This document shows, piece by piece, positions 1,105-34,275 of a stretch of 64,000 nucleotides of DNA (its first letter is position 1; every line of letters starts with the position of its first letter). The DNA comes from a virus, in the IMG/VR virus record IMGVR_UViG_3300028883_000044, positions 1 to 64,000 of that record; one strand, 5' to 3'. The position numbers and the translations under genes are program-made. Below the pieces are notes generated by a model. It was not told where the DNA came from. It was given only the letters and a program-made list of their open reading frames with translations, and did not search any database.

Positions 1105-1842
1105 TCACAAAGACTCATAAAGCTCATTCGCCAGGGACTTAGCTTCATCTAGCTTAATAAGAAGAGACTGGTACAATTCACCAGTATTCGTGGGGGTAGT
1201 ATTAGGTACAATTTTACTAAGATTAGACTTAAGCATAATATTCATATCTACACTGGTACCACTATTACCAATACCATTAACTCTCCCAGAGGCTGAGTAT
1301 TGCCATATAGTCCAGTTATTCCACCCTATAGGCATATAAGGACTCAAATCTCCCCAAGCCTTATAGTGAGCTACCCATAAAGGACAATCTCTCACCCAAG
1401 AAGGAATTTGAGTACCAAACCTATTCCAGTACCATTTAGCAGTGTACAAAATCGTGGGTTGGTTCCACTTCGCATAGATCGTATCTACGTATTCATAAAT
1501 ATTATTTAAATAATAATCCCTGCTAGAGGAACTCAGTAAAGAATATATACGTACATCCTCTACATCTATTACGGGATACTGCTCTCTTTTTTCAGTATGA
1601 TCCATAAAGTAAAGAGCCTGATCTTTACCTGAGACTTGTCCTCTCCAGAAATGGTACCCCGATCCTGATAAATTTATTTGTTTAGTACCGTTTAGATTGT
1701 TCTCTCCCTGATCGTCAATGAACCAATTACCCTCAGTAACTTTATAAAAAGCAAACTTTAAATCCAACGGGTCATCTTTGACCTGGTCCCAATCGATATT
1801 ACCTTGATAATGTGATACATCAATACCGTTGATAACTTCCAT
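1105..1842 (-). CDS. Endolysin, GH25 family lysozyme (N-acetylmuramidase)
   Basis: Glycoside hydrolase family 25 cuts the MurNAc-GlcNAc bond of peptidoglycan. The N-terminus carries the family signature GIDVSHYQG with Asp8, and the catalytic pair appears as VIDVED with Asp93 and Glu95. The catalytic barrel fills about residues 5-210. A short Thr/Pro/Asn linker and a helical tail of about 30 residues (from residue 217) follow, with no recognised binding domain. The ATG has an AAGGAG ribosome binding site. It is the last gene of the leftward late block, directly after a small membrane protein, the usual lysis arrangement. No signal peptide, so release should depend on a holin. Confidence 0.92.
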   Translation of the reverse strand: MEVINGIDVSHYQGNIDWDQVKDDPLDLKFAFYKVTEGNWFIDDQGENNLNGTKQINLSGSGYHFWRGQVSGKDQALYFMDHTEKREQYPVIDVEDVRIYSLLSSSSRDYYLNNIYEYVDTIYAKWNQPTILYTAKWYWNRFGTQIPSWVRDCPLWVAHYKAWGDLSPYMPIGWNNWTIWQYSASGRVNGIGNSGTSVDMNIMLKSNLSKIVPNTTPTNTGELYQSLLIKLDEAKSLANELYESL

Positions 1843-1843
1843 A

Positions 1844-2101
1844 TTAACTGTCTCCTTTTAATTCTTTTTCTAATTCAGATATTTTATTTTGTAACATAGA
1901 TATAAACTCCAACAGGTCAGCATTAACATTCCTTAATGTCTCTACCTCATGTTTACTTAACTGTAGAGCCTTATCCATTAACTTTTCAGATATTTCTGTC
2001 TCTGACTTTTTAGCTTCAGCTCGCCATTTTCTTAATTGCAGGAGGGCGACACCTAACGTACCAATCAGAGAAATGATAGCAACGATTATTCCAGCATCCA
2101 T
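1844..2101 (-). CDS. Holin-like small membrane protein, 85 aa
   Basis: One N-terminal membrane helix (about residues 4-22) is followed by a basic patch (RKWRAEAKK) and a heptad-like charged helix to the C-terminus that looks like a coiled coil. This resembles small phage lysis membrane proteins of the haemolysin XhlA type, but no family signature is certain. It lies one base upstream of the endolysin gene and shares its transcript, which makes holin or holin-accessory the most likely role. The start has a good AAGGAG site. Confidence 0.65.
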   Translation of the reverse strand: MDAGIIVAIISLIGTLGVALLQLRKWRAEAKKSETEISEKLMDKALQLSKHEVETLRNVNADLLEFISMLQNKISELEKELKGDS

Positions 2102-2111
2102 GTCTGACTCC

Positions 2112-2744
2112 TTAAACCAAAGTTACAGTACCGGTTATTGTTGGATGTCCATTAGTAGTACAAGTTCCTGCAACTCTTAGTTTAATTACTTCCCCTGATT
2201 TTTTAATAGCGTCTAAGGTATAGCAACATTTTGGAATCTCCCCAGAAAATCTCTGTCTTGACTTCTCTTTGAATACTTCCCTATAATCTGGATGTACTAT
2301 ATCTAAAAGATTCTTACCTATTATTTCTCCTATACTACCATACCCTAAAACCTCAGCCAATTTAAAATTAGCATACTCTAATATATAATCTGAATTGAAA
2401 ACATAAAACCCTATCTGAGAATTATCCATAATAGCATAGTGTTTATGTTGTAACTCTTCGATTATATTTGAAACTACATTAGAATCAATTTTACTTTCAT
2501 ACTTTTCTGTTATTAATTTTACTCCATAAATTATAATATCACTCACTAAGATAACAATAAAAAGCAAATAATCTATTTTATATTTATAAAATATATAGGG
2601 GGAAATAACCATACTCAATAATACTATTCCTAATAATAACCTTGGAATAGCTTCCCCTATTACAGCTATATAATTTTTTCGTATAGCTTTTATTATTAAA
2701 AGTATTGCTGAAATGATTGCCAGTATTCCTAAAATGGTATCCAT
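2112..2744 (-). CDS. Membrane protein with a C-terminal PAS domain, 210 aa
   Basis: The N-terminal 80-90 residues hold three hydrophobic segments. The C-terminal half (about residues 100-210) looks like a PAS sensor domain, with the typical pattern of GFYVF, a YANFKLAEVLGY segment and a closing GEVIKLRVAGT strand pair. No kinase, GGDEF or HTH output domain follows. I placed the start at 2744 because AAGGAGA lies seven bases before it; a longer ORF from 2771 would overlap the upstream gene without an SD. It sits between fibre genes and the holin-like/endolysin pair, so a role in sensing membrane or metabolic state for lysis is possible but is inference. Confidence 0.75.
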   Translation of the reverse strand: MDTILGILAIISAILLIIKAIRKNYIAVIGEAIPRLLLGIVLLSMVISPYIFYKYKIDYLLFIVILVSDIIIYGVKLITEKYESKIDSNVVSNIIEELQHKHYAIMDNSQIGFYVFNSDYILEYANFKLAEVLGYGSIGEIIGKNLLDIVHPDYREVFKEKSRQRFSGEIPKCCYTLDAIKKSGEVIKLRVAGTCTTNGHPTITGTVTLV

Positions 2745-2755
2745 ATATTTTCTCC

Positions 2756-3433
2756 TTACGTTACCATACAATTAGATATTAGTGGATTATTTTTATAAAC
2801 TGTTTGTATTGGTGCTTCCTTTAAAACAGACGCCCATATCAAATAGCTAGTAGCCGCAGTTAGTGTAGCACTGGCTTCATCATCACTGGTTTCATCTGAT
2901 CCCCATACACCTCTATTGCCCGGAGTCGTTGCTAATTCAAATCTCTCATTTTGATTAGTCCCAGGTGTAACACTTATAGTAGCGTCATCGAAGCCTAAGA
3001 AACTTAATACAAACCCATCGCCACCTGCAAGAGACGATACAGAAGGAGTAGTATCCCTAGTAGCATAAGACCTATTAAAAGTTGATGGGGTATTATACGG
3101 GTTTGTCTGATGTACTCCAGAATAAGATACAGCACCAGCCATAATATAACAATTAGTATTTAAACTTACAGCTACTGTATTACTCCCAGAAGCTGGGTTT
3201 ACTAAATAAAATATAGTAAATCTACCATAATCTGTATTCTCTTCATGTAACTTCGTCATAGAAACACTATTATAAGTAACTGTTGCTACATAGTTTAAAC
3301 CGCTACCGTTAGTATAACCGTGCATAACAACAAATAAAATTCTATTGTCTCCTACCCCTACTTCGTGTGAGAAAGAGGGGGAGGAAGCATTATTAATATG
3401 GTATGTTGTCGCATTATCGTAAGCTATAGTCAT
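2756..3433 (-). CDS. Putative surface or fibre protein, beta-rich, 225 aa
   Basis: The sequence is rich in Ser, Thr, Asn and Gly with alternating beta-strand patterns and no membrane segment. Segments such as FYLVNPASGSNTVAVSL and AGAVSYSGVHQTNPY resemble a beta-sandwich module common in secreted and environmental surface proteins. I recognise no enzyme motif. It lies at the end of the tail fibre block, so a receptor-binding or virion-surface role is the best guess. Its ribosome binding site (AGAAG) is weaker than those of its neighbours. Confidence 0.6.
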   Translation of the reverse strand: MTIAYDNATTYHINNASSPSFSHEVGVGDNRILFVVMHGYTNGSGLNYVATVTYNSVSMTKLHEENTDYGRFTIFYLVNPASGSNTVAVSLNTNCYIMAGAVSYSGVHQTNPYNTPSTFNRSYATRDTTPSVSSLAGGDGFVLSFLGFDDATISVTPGTNQNERFELATTPGNRGVWGSDETSDDEASATLTAATSYLIWASVLKEAPIQTVYKNNPLISNCMVT

Positions 3434-6953: not shown

Positions 6954-8018
6954 CTATAATTTATCAATAAAGAATTTTAAGTTATTTAAAAGTCTTTGAT
7001 TATTTGGGTCTAAACTCAAAGCCTTTTCTGCATATTCCTTACCTTCACTATATCTACCTAATTGCCATAAACATCTTGCTGTAAAATCGTAATAGTAAGT
7101 TCCATACCAGTAATGATTTACATAAGTTCCTTTTGGTTTTTGTATCTCTCCTATAAGTTTTAATAAACTAATTGCTAATGTGTACTTTCTATTTCTGTAA
7201 TAATATTCTGCTATTTCTCCCCACCACTCTCTTCTTAGAGGTTCATAACTAACAGCTTGATATAAATGATTTAAATATTTAGTAGTATCTTTTAACATTG
7301 CATAAGCTCTCGCTATAAAATAGTGGGCATTTCCTATATCTCTATCCCCTGAAGTTTTAAAATATTTTTTAAAGGTAGTGATAGCCTGCTTTGGTTTTTC
7401 TAGGTATATATACTGTCTACCTAAATAAAATAAAATTCTAGGATTATTTGGATTTTCTTTATTATCTAATTTAAGTCTATCCAAAGTATATTTAAATTTC
7501 CAAGCATCCCTTTCTTTAGGTGGTCTATGTTCAAATAAAACATCAGAATAAATATATTTAATATTCTTTTCTTTTTCTATTTTGAAGGGAACTTCATGGG
7601 CACGATACCTGTATAAATGTGTCCCAGCTTTCCATATCCTTAATTGATGGAAAGAATATGTAGCTATATCATTAGTCATATAAGCCAATGTAACATAGAT
7701 ACCACTTATTCCATTTTTATCTGCATTGATTATTTCTTCCTTCGTGTTTTTTATATCAGATATTTGTTCATCACAATCTAAAGAAATTATCCAATCACCT
7801 GTAGCTGTATTTATAGCTCTATTTCTAGATTCTGCTTTGTGCATCTTATCTCCCCCAGTTAATACTTTAGCACCTAATTCTTCCGCTATTTTTACAGTAT
7901 TATCAGTAGAACCTGTATCAACTACTATTACTTCATCAGCTAAACCTTTAACACTACCTATAGCTTTTTCTATATATCCTTCTTCATCCTTTGCAATCAT
8001 ACATGCACTAATTTTCAT
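6954..8018 (-). CDS. Family 2 glycosyltransferase with TPR tail, 354 aa
   Basis: The first 100 residues have the GT2 pattern of a GT-A fold: [16 protein letters not shown], then [10 protein letters not shown], and the metal-binding LDCDEQ in place of DxD. After about residue 190 come helix-turn-helix repeats of TPR type ([35 protein letters not shown]). This GT2 plus TPR architecture is common in bacteria and includes protein-glycosylating enzymes. It is located between a collagen-like fibre gene and other tail genes, with its own AGGAGG site. Modification of Thr in the neighbouring GPT repeats is an attractive inference, by analogy to glycosylated GPT repeats of Bacillus BclA. Confidence 0.88.
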
Positions 8019-22363: not shown

Positions 22364-22799
22364 CTTTTTTCCTCTCCTCTAAATTAATTATAATCCTATT
22401 TATAGACGGTACCCCTCTATAAATAATATTCTTTTTAGCCATTTCCTTATCATCTACTATAAAAATATCGGATATATCAACGACATTTTTATTTGTATCT
22501 GTATACTCAATTTGAACTTTACAATCACCTTCAGCTAATTGTCCCCCCGATACCCAGCCGAGTTCATCTACTTTACCCCAAGTTACATGAGCATTAACTG
22601 AATAACCGCTAACAGTTTCAATCCAGTAAGCACCTTCACAGGCAATACAAAAAGGGTCTGTAGATAAATTAGTTGTAGGGTCTAATGTACATAAAGAACA
22701 GGCGGATATAGTCGGTACATTTATGGTTATATCTCTACCTATGGCATTCCTTATATCATCAATTACTTGCTTGTAATCCTCCACCCACGTTATGCTCAT
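22356..22799 (-). CDS. Cysteine-bearing neck-region protein, 147 aa
   Basis: Residues 34-51 carry CSLCT...FCIAC, two CxxC pairs spaced like a zinc knuckle; the rest is beta-rich with HVTWGKVDELGWVSGG. Zinc knuckles are known in several phage tail/neck proteins. Placed directly after a glycosyltransferase gene with a 41-base overlap, in the connector block. I infer a head-tail connector or adaptor stabilised by zinc. Confidence 0.6.
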   Translation of the reverse strand: MSITWVEDYKQVIDDIRNAIGRDITINVPTISACSLCTLDPTTNLSTDPFCIACEGAYWIETVSGYSVNAHVTWGKVDELGWVSGGQLAEGDCKVQIEYTDTNKNVVDISDIFIVDDKEMAKKNIIYRGVPSINRIIINLEERKKDV

Positions 22800-24018
22800 T
22801 TTCTTCTACCTCAACTTTTACTTCTTCCGTTACAGTATTTTCAAAAACTCTTGCCCATCTTTTTGCAATAGTTTTCCATGAGTATTTGGAAGATGTAAAT
22901 TTTTTATATGATTTTTCTTCCAGTTCTTTTCTGAGGTCTTTATCTGTATAAAGCATTTCCATCCCCTTTGCTACATCAGCAGGATGTACTAAACCTCCAG
23001 TAGTATTAATATTATCTTGAATAATCGCCTGTCGTGGCTCAATAAGAACCCCACAATCTCCAAATAATTCTAAACAGGAACTATGTGCTGGAACTATTTG
23101 AGCCGCTCTGGTTACTGTATGTTCCATGCTAACTAATCCCCACCCTTCTCCTACAGAAGTATTAATACCTATATCAGTTGCATTATAAATTTTATTTAGT
23201 TTCTCTACAGATTTTCGCTGAACACCGTTGGTCAAATCAGTTAAAATAAGACGATTAACTATACCATAGCGTTTAGCTAATTTTGCTACATTTATAGCGG
23301 CGTCTGTATTACCTCCATGATAATACATTTTAACATTTAAAGGTTTATCGCTGGAGAATATAGCAAAAGCTTGTAAACTTATATCTATCCTTTTACGTGG
23401 TTGATTTCTATTAGCATTTAAAACTATAAAAGAATCCTCAAAATCTTTGGCACCTTTCGGATAAATTTCTCTCTTTACTTCTAATTTATTTTCTAATGGA
23501 TAAAATATTTTCTTATCAATACCATGTGGCATTATTTCCACAACCATTTTAGGATTTGCTTTTAATACAACATCTTTAGCAAATTCTGTATAAACAAATA
23601 TCTTATCAACTATATCAAAATTAGTATACCATTCAGGATCATGATCCATTGCATCTATTGGAAAATACACAATTATTTTTGGTATACTTTTATTTTTAAA
23701 TTCTTTTAATGCAAATGTTTTTTTAATTTCTTTTAGATAAGCATTAATAACCCACGCATCATTTAATAGGAATATAAAGTCATAATCGTCTTGTAACAAT
23801 AATTCTTTTATTCTATTATAACCATATATATTTCCTTTAGAAAAAGCGGGAAATATTTTATGGGAATACTCATGTGGGTCTCCAAAATAATTAACAGCTA
23901 ACTGTGCTATTTCAAATTTTGTTTTCGGTAAATTATCTATAATACCGTGCATTACTCTGGAAAATCCCGTAGGCACTACACCATCACCTATAAAAAAACC
24001 TTTCAATTTCCTTTCCAT
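22759..24018 (-). CDS. Family 4-type glycosyltransferase (GT-B), 419 aa
   Basis: GT-B fold with the family 4 signature: an N-terminal GVVPTGFSRVMHGIIDNLP, a central VEIMPHGIDKKIFYP, a second-domain NANRNQPRKRIDISLQAF, and INTSVGEGWGLVSMEH with the E-x(7)-E region (EGWGLVSMEHT). It transfers sugars from nucleotide donors. There is no signal peptide. It is located inside the head/neck block, upstream of the neck genes, and overlaps one, so it is co-transcribed with virion proteins. Glycosylation of a virion component is possible but unproven; a host-surface target is the alternative. Confidence 0.88.
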   Translation of the reverse strand: MERKLKGFFIGDGVVPTGFSRVMHGIIDNLPKTKFEIAQLAVNYFGDPHEYSHKIFPAFSKGNIYGYNRIKELLLQDDYDFIFLLNDAWVINAYLKEIKKTFALKEFKNKSIPKIIVYFPIDAMDHDPEWYTNFDIVDKIFVYTEFAKDVVLKANPKMVVEIMPHGIDKKIFYPLENKLEVKREIYPKGAKDFEDSFIVLNANRNQPRKRIDISLQAFAIFSSDKPLNVKMYYHGGNTDAAINVAKLAKRYGIVNRLILTDLTNGVQRKSVEKLNKIYNATDIGINTSVGEGWGLVSMEHTVTRAAQIVPAHSSCLELFGDCGVLIEPRQAIIQDNINTTGGLVHPADVAKGMEMLYTDKDLRKELEEKSYKKFTSSKYSWKTIAKRWARVFENTVTEEVKVEVEENEHNVGGGLQASN

Positions 24019-32301: not shown

Positions 32302-33185
32302 ATTTCAATTTCCTCCTCCATCCTGTTAACAATTCTATTTACATCTGTTACATTACTCCAAGTTTTCCTAGCATTTGTTTTAATATTGTATAGTAAATTA
32401 GAACCTTCCAAAGTTCTGCAAAAAGATAAGAAGAAAAAATCTTCCCTATTATAGTTATCTTTTACCTGAGTAAAAACGTAAGGTCCAGAACTTCTACCTA
32501 TAACACCATTACAGTATGTACTTAAATAACTTATCTCATTTAAGTCTTTATTATTTGGTGCTTTTATTATATCTTCTGTATAAACAACATTATCTAACAA
32601 TAGTGTGCTAAACTTTTGAGTAAGTATAAATACAATATCTGGATATTTTTTAGCTATTGAATATATAGGTTTATCAAAATTAAAATTAACTGCTTGATCT
32701 GAACTAGCAAACCCGTTGCTTACCAAAATCTTTTTTCTAGGTTCATTATCTACAAACTTATCTATATTATCCAGTAACTTATTATCCAAAAGTAAATAGT
32801 TTATTGTTGGTGTATAGTGATAAATATCTTTATCAAACCATCTACCATATCCAATATTTTCAAAAATATCATTAAACATATCTTTAAATTTAAAGAGAGC
32901 ACATCCTATCCCTGGCAAAACATATTTTGATTCTAAACCTATCCATGTATTTATATATAGATTATTATTAATAATATCAAAATGTTTTCCAAAAGGACAT
33001 GTCTTACTAACCTTCTCATAATATAAATTAGGGACATCTTGCAAAAGTAATTTTCCGTGCGGATGTTGATATATAACTTTATCAACATTCACAACACGCA
33101 TAGTATCTGAAACAAACTGTTTAGAGTTGAAGATGTCCCCATTACCATAAATATTAAAAAATATTAGATTTTTAAATTTTAACAT
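32286..33185 (-). CDS. Putative glycosyltransferase of the sugar cassette, about 299 aa
   Basis: Starts with a Rossmann-like strand (FKNLIFFNIYGNGDIFNSK), contains RKKILVSNGF and KKYPDIVFILTQKF, and ends in YNREDFFFLSFCRTL, a two-domain GT-B-like layout. No certain family. It overlaps both neighbours in the cassette. The ATG at 33185 is preceded only by a weak GGAAG; a GTG-like longer frame begins at 33215. I infer a transferase from context more than motif. Confidence 0.55.
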   Translation of the reverse strand: MLKFKNLIFFNIYGNGDIFNSKQFVSDTMRVVNVDKVIYQHPHGKLLLQDVPNLYYEKVSKTCPFGKHFDIINNNLYINTWIGLESKYVLPGIGCALFKFKDMFNDIFENIGYGRWFDKDIYHYTPTINYLLLDNKLLDNIDKFVDNEPRKKILVSNGFASSDQAVNFNFDKPIYSIAKKYPDIVFILTQKFSTLLLDNVVYTEDIIKAPNNKDLNEISYLSTYCNGVIGRSSGPYVFTQVKDNYNREDFFFLSFCRTLEGSNLLYNIKTNARKTWSNVTDVNRIVNRMEEEIEIWRKH

Positions 33186-34275
33186 TTTTAGAAAATTCTT
33201 CCACAACTTCGGCAATATATTCTTGCTGACTATATGTTAATTCTGGATAGCTTGGAAGAATTATTACCTCCTTGTTTAGTAGTTTAGCAGAATCTTCTTT
33301 GCCTTTAAACTTTTCTTGCAAATGTTTATGATAAGATACAGGGTAAAATAAAGGTCGAGTTTCTATATTCCTATCTTTAAAAAATCTATACGCATCATCA
33401 TAATTAGAGTTTCCTCTAATTCTAATTCCAAACATCCAGTTAGAATGTTTAGTATTTACAACTTCTATTTGAAATCTAACTTTAGGATTCTTTCTTAATA
33501 ATTTTCTATACCGACTAAATACTATATCCTTCTTATGAGCTATCTCTGGATAATCTTCTATTTGAGCATATAACATAGAAGCACTAACATTATTCAATCT
33601 ATAATTATATCCGAGTTCATCATGTATAAATTTTTTTTCTGTTTGACCTTGACCAAATATCTTTCGAGCATAGTCATAAATTTCTTTATACTTAGTTACA
33701 AAAGCACCGCCTTCTCCACAAGTTATATTTTTATTTCCAAAAAAAGAAAATGTGGAAAATACAGACTCTGTCCCAGCATGGTTAGAATTATAATAACCAC
33801 CAAAAGCTTCGCAAGCATCTTCGAAAATAATTTTATCTGGAAACATTTCTTTTAGCCTATAAACATTTATAACATTACCTAAATTATGTGTTACATAGAT
33901 AGCGTCAAATTCTTTTTGTTTTTCTAATAAATGTCTAGTGCTCATATTCCAAGAACTTAGGCTTGCATCTATAGGAACAAACTCGTAATCAAAATTATCA
34001 TACAATAATGAATTCCATACAGACACATAAACATTATTAGGAACAGCTATACGCTTTACTTGCGGATAAAATTTATGTAAACACTTAATCATTAAATGAT
34101 TAGCTACTGTACCATTACTTGTAAGTAAAACATAATCACTATCTATAAATCGTTTTAGTTTATCCGTAGCAAAATCTACATACATACCATTAGAAGAAAT
34201 CCAACCACTCCTAATTGCACTTTCACCAAACTTAATTAGCCTTTCCGTTATATAGGGTTTATATACGGGTATCAT
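33172..34275 (-). CDS. DegT/DnrJ/EryC1-type sugar aminotransferase, 367 aa
   Basis: PLP-dependent aminotransferase family that converts nucleotide-linked keto sugars to amino sugars. Visible motifs: VYKPYITERLIKFGESAI at the start, LTSNGTVANHLMIKCL, DACEAFGGYY, FFGNKNITCGEGGAF (with the PLP-binding Lys) and ETRPLFYPVSYH. The start overlaps the upstream stop in ATGA. No nucleotidyltransferase or 4,6-dehydratase gene is in the window, so the substrate should be supplied by the host (inference). Confidence 0.9.
   Translation of the reverse strand: MIPVYKPYITERLIKFGESAIRSGWISSNGMYVDFATDKLKRFIDSDYVLLTSNGTVANHLMIKCLHKFYPQVKRIAVPNNVYVSVWNSLLYDNFDYEFVPIDASLSSWNMSTRHLLEKQKEFDAIYVTHNLGNVINVYRLKEMFPDKIIFEDACEAFGGYYNSNHAGTESVFSTFSFFGNKNITCGEGGAFVTKYKEIYDYARKIFGQGQTEKKFIHDELGYNYRLNNVSASMLYAQIEDYPEIAHKKDIVFSRYRKLLRKNPKVRFQIEVVNTKHSNWMFGIRIRGNSNYDDAYRFFKDRNIETRPLFYPVSYHKHLQEKFKGKEDSAKLLNKEVIILPSYPELTYSQQEYIAEVVEEFSKNVKI

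Follow-up and report, generated by a model that had tools for sequence, protein, structure and literature searches.

What would a phage do with a membrane-anchored PAS domain encoded among its lysis genes? The question is raised by a 64,000-nucleotide stretch of viral DNA (the window), which belongs to the 80,792-bp virus record IMGVR_UViG_3300028883_000044 (positions 1 to 64,000) and carries on its minus strand, at 2112..2744, an open reading frame for a protein of 210 residues, here termed 3TM-PAS. On the prevailing view, holin build-up to a critical density is the main determinant of when lysis occurs, and T4-type lysis inhibition is the well-studied environmental input to that timing. A PAS-bearing membrane protein in the lysis cassette of three distant phages would let phages read the internal state of the host at lysis, and could also offer a ligand-controlled lysis switch for biotechnology.

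Architecture of the 3TM-PAS protein

The reading frame starts with the ATG at 2744, with an AAGGAG ribosome site shortly 5' of it. Hydropathy places three hydrophobic helices at the N-terminal end (approximately residues 4-21, 36-53 and 61-78); these are followed by a linker helix (about 88-105) and the PAS domain (about 103-209). Residues 103-204 match PF00989 with an E-value of 5.3e-7 and a score of 30.1 bits, above the curated cut-off of 22.6, and the TIGR00229 sensory_box model matches with 4.7e-12 and 46.1 bits against a cut-off of 22.9, the two matches together spanning residues 101-205 or so. The open reading frame has a complete C-terminal PAS domain. An earlier, sequence-only reading had proposed three membrane helices and a C-terminal PAS domain at these coordinates, and both the profile searches and the boundaries agree with it, the strand being minus.

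A model of the protein was calculated with AlphaFold2 from a three-sequence alignment. It displays three membrane helices, the linker helix and the whole PAS topology, which ends at residue 209 of 210, at modest confidence (pLDDT 67, pTM 0.42, with most of the PAS core at 70-83). The modelled PAS strands comprise residues 112-116, 121-125, 172-180, 186-196 and 202-209 with helices between them, giving the five-stranded sheet with intervening helices characteristic of the fold. A Foldseek search with the model retrieved PAS structures including ARNT PAS-B, EcDOS, NifL and FixL, with E-values from about 1e-8 to 1e-7. Only five residues follow the TITG in the final PAS strand; an output domain is absent, as had been claimed from the translation. 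Hydropathy and charge counts predict an N-out/C-in arrangement that would place the PAS domain in the cytoplasm.

Class I holins, of the lambda S105 type, have three TM segments, are N-out/C-in and are encoded beside the endolysin. By hydropathy, charge counts and the helices of the model, 3TM-PAS is predicted to have the same number of segments and the same orientation, and it too has an endolysin neighbour, a likeness in general features. No holin family of Pfam or PHROGs was matched by the window protein, which at 210 residues exceeds the small size of holins, and P0001 and P0002 matched no known holin family. Class I holins, moreover, are without a folded cytoplasmic sensor domain, whereas 3TM-PAS carries the whole of a PAS domain, about 105 residues long.

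Gene order in the window and in related phages

3TM-PAS is the first gene of a packed unit of three, each with its own ribosome site. The gene for an 85-residue partner (1844..2101, minus strand) starts 10 nt past the 3TM-PAS stop codon, and that for a lysozyme-type GH25 endolysin of 245 residues (1105..1842, minus strand, E=2.8e-32) starts 1 nt past the stop codon of the partner. The partner, of a type we call TM-CC, consists of a single N-terminal TM segment and a charged helix (39% Lys, Arg, Asp and Glu); it is predicted to be N-out/C-in and matches a PHROG annotated 'hol-like chemotaxis' (E=4e-7). The upstream gene (2756..3433, minus strand) encodes a minor-tail/fibre-like protein of 225 residues (phrog_553, E=5.9e-13), and the lysis genes therefore end the late tail/fibre run. 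The trio closes a long minus-strand series with portal and terminase, tape measure, tail and collagen-like fibre genes upstream. The location first proposed, between fibre genes and a holin-like/endolysin pair, is borne out by these matches. In a promoter scan, promoter-like sites were no commoner than in shuffled sequences.

Other features of the surroundings can be recorded. Convergent with the lysis genes is a plus-strand open reading frame of 204 residues (212-826) without any family match; between the two lie a hairpin resembling a terminator (834-805, minus strand) and a second inverted repeat at approximately 846-893. The record starts with a short tandem repeat (positions 1-50, gtggctggtagctg...), which is perhaps an assembly edge. 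Within the late structural run, at 6954-8018, 22759-24018 and 33172-34275, are genes for glycosyltransferases (GT2 with TPR repeats; phrog_2170 type) and a sugar-type aminotransferase, which suggests modification of virion or host glycans.

Related phages were collected by a terminase scan of IMG/VR and their records then searched for PAS domains. A second scan, made with a tail protein whose gene lies close to the lysis genes, produced 53 loci and a third lineage, represented by records G091 and G092. In the first relative, G002 (78,810 bp), the terminase is 56% identical to that of the window and the gene order is GH25, 3TM-PAS, TM-CC, that is, the same parts differently arranged. Its 3TM-PAS protein has 202 residues and is 24% identical to that of the window over residues 5-206, the whole length (E=8.5e-10); the TM-CC and GH25 proteins are 34% and 24% identical, respectively. 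This homologue matches PF13426 with 40 bits. G091 and G092 encode a 3TM-PAS protein of 197 residues with a TM-CC gene directly after it. The G092 protein matches PF00989 with 28.8 bits, and its model has the elements in the same order as that of the window protein, with the PAS fold complete. An endolysin gene adjoins the pair in G002 and, two genes downstream of 3TM-PAS, in the window, but not in G092, where the pair follows tail-fibre genes and the GH25 gene is some 32 kb off. The sequence-only reading had held that homologues outside lysis regions with a clearly different role would speak against it, and the G092 locus goes weakly in that direction.

The three phage proteins are homologous over their full length with 21-33% identity, a TM-CC gene adjoins each, and the copies are as diverged as the remaining lysis genes of their phages. 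Five residues of the membrane part are invariant (Ser12, Lys19, Gly30, Arg35 and Asp69) and the C-terminal motif NG[HQ]xTITG is common to all three. The PAS domain is present in three of approximately 119 related records, a floor and not a frequency since most records are fragments.

Single-sequence pattern scans (P0001, P0002, alignments A1 and A7) gave no further viral relatives and an endolysin pattern scan gave none either. No PAS-type PHROG was matched, and tblastn of the PAS proteins against 50,697 phage records produced no match; the earlier remark that phage PAS sensors are rare is fair, though some exist, VqmA among them (PMC8284805). Phage histidine kinases and short PAS proteins also occur among predicted viral structures. 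The open-access papers searched yielded no PAS-bearing holin and no PAS protein of a lysis cassette, and PHROGs likewise had no PAS-bearing holin. The only hint of a holin family is a weak match (E=0.017) of the G092 homologue to phrog_5308, annotated 'holin', to which we give little weight as evidence of a holin because the same profile matches 7 of 14 control genomes. A scan of genome contigs with the terminase alignment found two binned contigs only, in Bathyarchaeota and Brevinema MAGs, too weak a result for host assignment.

Five more lineages (the G011 group, G045, G082, G094 and G031) have, directly before TM-CC, a three-TM protein of 97-111 residues without a soluble domain, and a GH25 lysin is encoded within a few genes of the pair. 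The order in G094 is that of the window: 3TM, TM-CC, GH25. In an automatic scan, six of eight TM-CC loci had a small multi-TM open reading frame directly upstream; the base rate is 2.5% of open reading frames, and the probability of such enrichment is about 6e-9, or about 4e-7 if the base rate is doubled, with criteria that were set post hoc. By positive-inside counts, each of the eight three-TM proteins and each of the four TM-CC proteins is predicted to be N-out/C-in. Comparison of the membrane part of the PAS proteins with the PAS-less proteins gave z-scores, with pattern preserved, of -1.2 to 3.7 and a best profile E-value of 0.11 (G094), by which homology is only hinted at. We use the PAS-less proteins solely as positional equivalents, and the argument drawn from them is positional and architectural. 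In G031 and G082 one more small membrane protein is encoded beside the pair and could be the true holin.

Two other proteins occur in this phage group. In four related phages a conserved protein of 52-77 residues adjoins the lysis pair (L049:7405-7632; L209:8879-9109; L161:20014-20172; L188:18853-19086); it has the pattern MPY...GGD..EN..ME.CV and the C-terminal end KA.AICK, and was not found in the record of the window. Other relatives (L063:2669-3202; L061:917-1291; L172:16401-16913) encode a coiled-coil protein with a C-terminal TM segment, near GH25 or after fibre genes, that has an XhlA-like layout and a GKASQ stretch in common. This is apparently another type of lysis-region membrane protein.

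A proposed role in lysis timing

Two functions had been suggested from the sequence, a sensory factor in lysis timing or an adopted host sensor. The former is the best-supported reading on the comparisons made here, favoured because the same partner occurs in three distant phages, two of which have GH25 beside the pair, and because other lineages have a PAS-less three-TM protein in the position of 3TM-PAS. We propose, with a probability of about 0.58, that 3TM-PAS is a holin-like component of the lysis cassette to which a cytoplasmic PAS domain has been added; the three-TM part and the partner would set the timing of permeabilisation and the PAS domain would regulate the triggering. From the computed results, namely the domain composition, the linkage of the genes, the homologues of full length in distant phages and the predicted topology, we infer a function in lysis, the pairing with the partner and a signal input with its direction.

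A precedent for such a pair exists in F1 mycobacteriophages, where deletion tests indicate that LysF1a, with two TM segments, and LysF1b set the timing of lysis (PMC13056207). LysF1b has one N-terminal TM segment, an N-out/C-in orientation and a charged helix (PMC13056207). The window contains the same layout beside its endolysin gene, adjacent genes for a multi-TM protein and a single-TM, N-out/C-in, charged-helix protein, and by this analogy of layout 3TM-PAS may be read as the multi-TM member. LysF1a itself differs in having 88 residues, two TM segments, a predicted N-in/C-in topology and no PAS domain (PMC13056207).

The three-TM part, N-out and C-in, would work in the host inner membrane together with its single-TM, charged-helix neighbour; the two would determine when the membrane becomes permeable and the GH25 endolysin gains access to the wall. 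The cytoplasmic PAS domain would be joined to the third TM segment by the helical linker. Since the last PAS strand closes the chain, a signal would have to leave by the N-terminal linker, towards the membrane helices, or sideways to the charged helix of the partner. A small cytoplasmic ligand bound by the domain, or dimerisation between PAS domains, might permit or delay assembly of the lesion.

What kind of signal might be read? No His, Cys or Trp is common to the three PAS domains, which also lack a LOV motif, and a conserved heme or LOV-type cofactor is therefore unlikely; we set aside assignment to either class. A ligand held non-covalently is possible. In a more specific form of the proposal, which we put forward tentatively, the protein would be a lysis protein of class I type that senses a metabolite, redox or energy signal of the host through its own cytoplasmic PAS domain and thereby decides the time of lysis. 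If true, this would be an input to lysis timing separate from collapse of the PMF and from superinfection sensing of the T4 type. That 3TM-PAS stands directly beside the lysis genes here, and recurs in two distantly related phages, suggests a possible coupling of lysis timing to a signal from inside the host.

A phage-encoded PAS domain that couples a signal to a lytic outcome, as that of 3TM-PAS might, is found in VqmA of vibriophage VP882, which is a soluble PAS-HTH transcription factor in the lysis-lysogeny decision and not a membrane protein of a lysis cassette (PMC8284805). In the T4 holin T with its antiholin RI, a folded soluble domain on a membrane protein of lysis timing takes the regulatory input; T, however, has one TM segment and binds another protein through a periplasmic domain, as opposed to three segments and a predicted cytoplasmic PAS domain (PMC11413866).

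That a soluble domain can carry the signal in the T4 holin/antiholin complex (PMC11413866) is also consistent with a different division of labour, in which 3TM-PAS is an antiholin or regulator of lysis and the actual holin is TM-CC or another small membrane protein. The constancy of TM-CC in all lineages seen fits this arrangement, as does the activity of single-TM LysF1b, demonstrably triggered by energy poison and needed by LysF1a (PMC13056207). TM-CC, on the other hand, has a single TM segment and belongs to no established holin family, the PHROG name being an annotation only, and we consider such a role for 3TM-PAS possible but rather doubtful.

Alternatively the PAS domain is no sensor and serves as a structural module for dimerisation or clustering that merely aids oligomerisation of the three-TM lysis protein. 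PAS domains often dimerise, and that of VqmA is needed for dimerisation (PMC8284805); the absence of a common His, Cys or Trp that would mark a heme or LOV-type cofactor and the shortened stretch from F-alpha to G-beta in G092 could be understood in the same way. Yet three-TM proteins hold the same position elsewhere with no PAS domain, so the extra domain is dispensable for the basic role, and many ligand-binding PAS domains are without a ligated cofactor, so that its absence is no bar to sensing. A purely structural part for the domain seems rather unlikely to us, yet it is a rival to be reckoned with.

The adopted host sensor fares worse. PAS domains are common in bacterial sensors, and residues 15-198 of 3TM-PAS match the NCBIfam model MASE3_PAS_HK, though at 33.8 bits this is far below its cut-off of 560; the protein could then be the 3TM-PAS fragment of a histidine kinase or cyclase, used for signalling and placed next to the lysis genes by chance. 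The cellular matches examined are confined, however, to the PAS domain and linker inside longer proteins, either open reading frames of 280-1110 residues in one MAG or kinase and EAL proteins on plasmids. The full-length homology of the three divergent phage copies and the same partner adjoining each also speak against a recent pick-up, and a captured fragment is already disfavoured as highly improbable. Least probable, by a little, is a protein of superinfection exclusion or anti-defence that happens to sit in the late operon, roles frequent among small phage membrane proteins, since the partner is constant, the linkage to GH25 recurs in distant phages and PADLOC, which gave no match, lends no support to a defence role.

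PAS-like proteins of Cellulophaga phages

Proteins of a comparable kind are encoded by Cellulophaga phages. Phi18:3 gp090, phiSM CEPG_00010 and phi19:1 gp108 are proteins with one TM segment and a PAS-like predicted fold that are encoded near an endolysin or lysozyme gene. The gene is directly before the endolysin in phiSM, two genes before it in phi18:3 and a few genes before the lysozyme in phi19:1 and Nekkels. The BFVD entries S0A2B2 and R9ZZL0 were tied to the Cellulophaga genes by phage name and protein length. PAS-like single-TM proteins annotated as hypothetical are located at L218:39102-39620, L221:3911-4546, L220:3935-4537, L219:7703-8425 and L222:4094-4723, in Cellulophaga phages of several families.

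With 3TM-PAS these proteins share membrane anchoring, the PAS-like predicted fold and the vicinity of lysis genes. They differ in having one TM segment and a strongly basic N-terminus, which suggests that they are probably N-in/C-out, opposite to 3TM-PAS. Profile comparison with hhalign gave no sequence link between the two groups. The Cellulophaga proteins are probably a parallel case, and there may have been more than one origin of membrane-anchored PAS-type domains in the vicinity of lysis genes.
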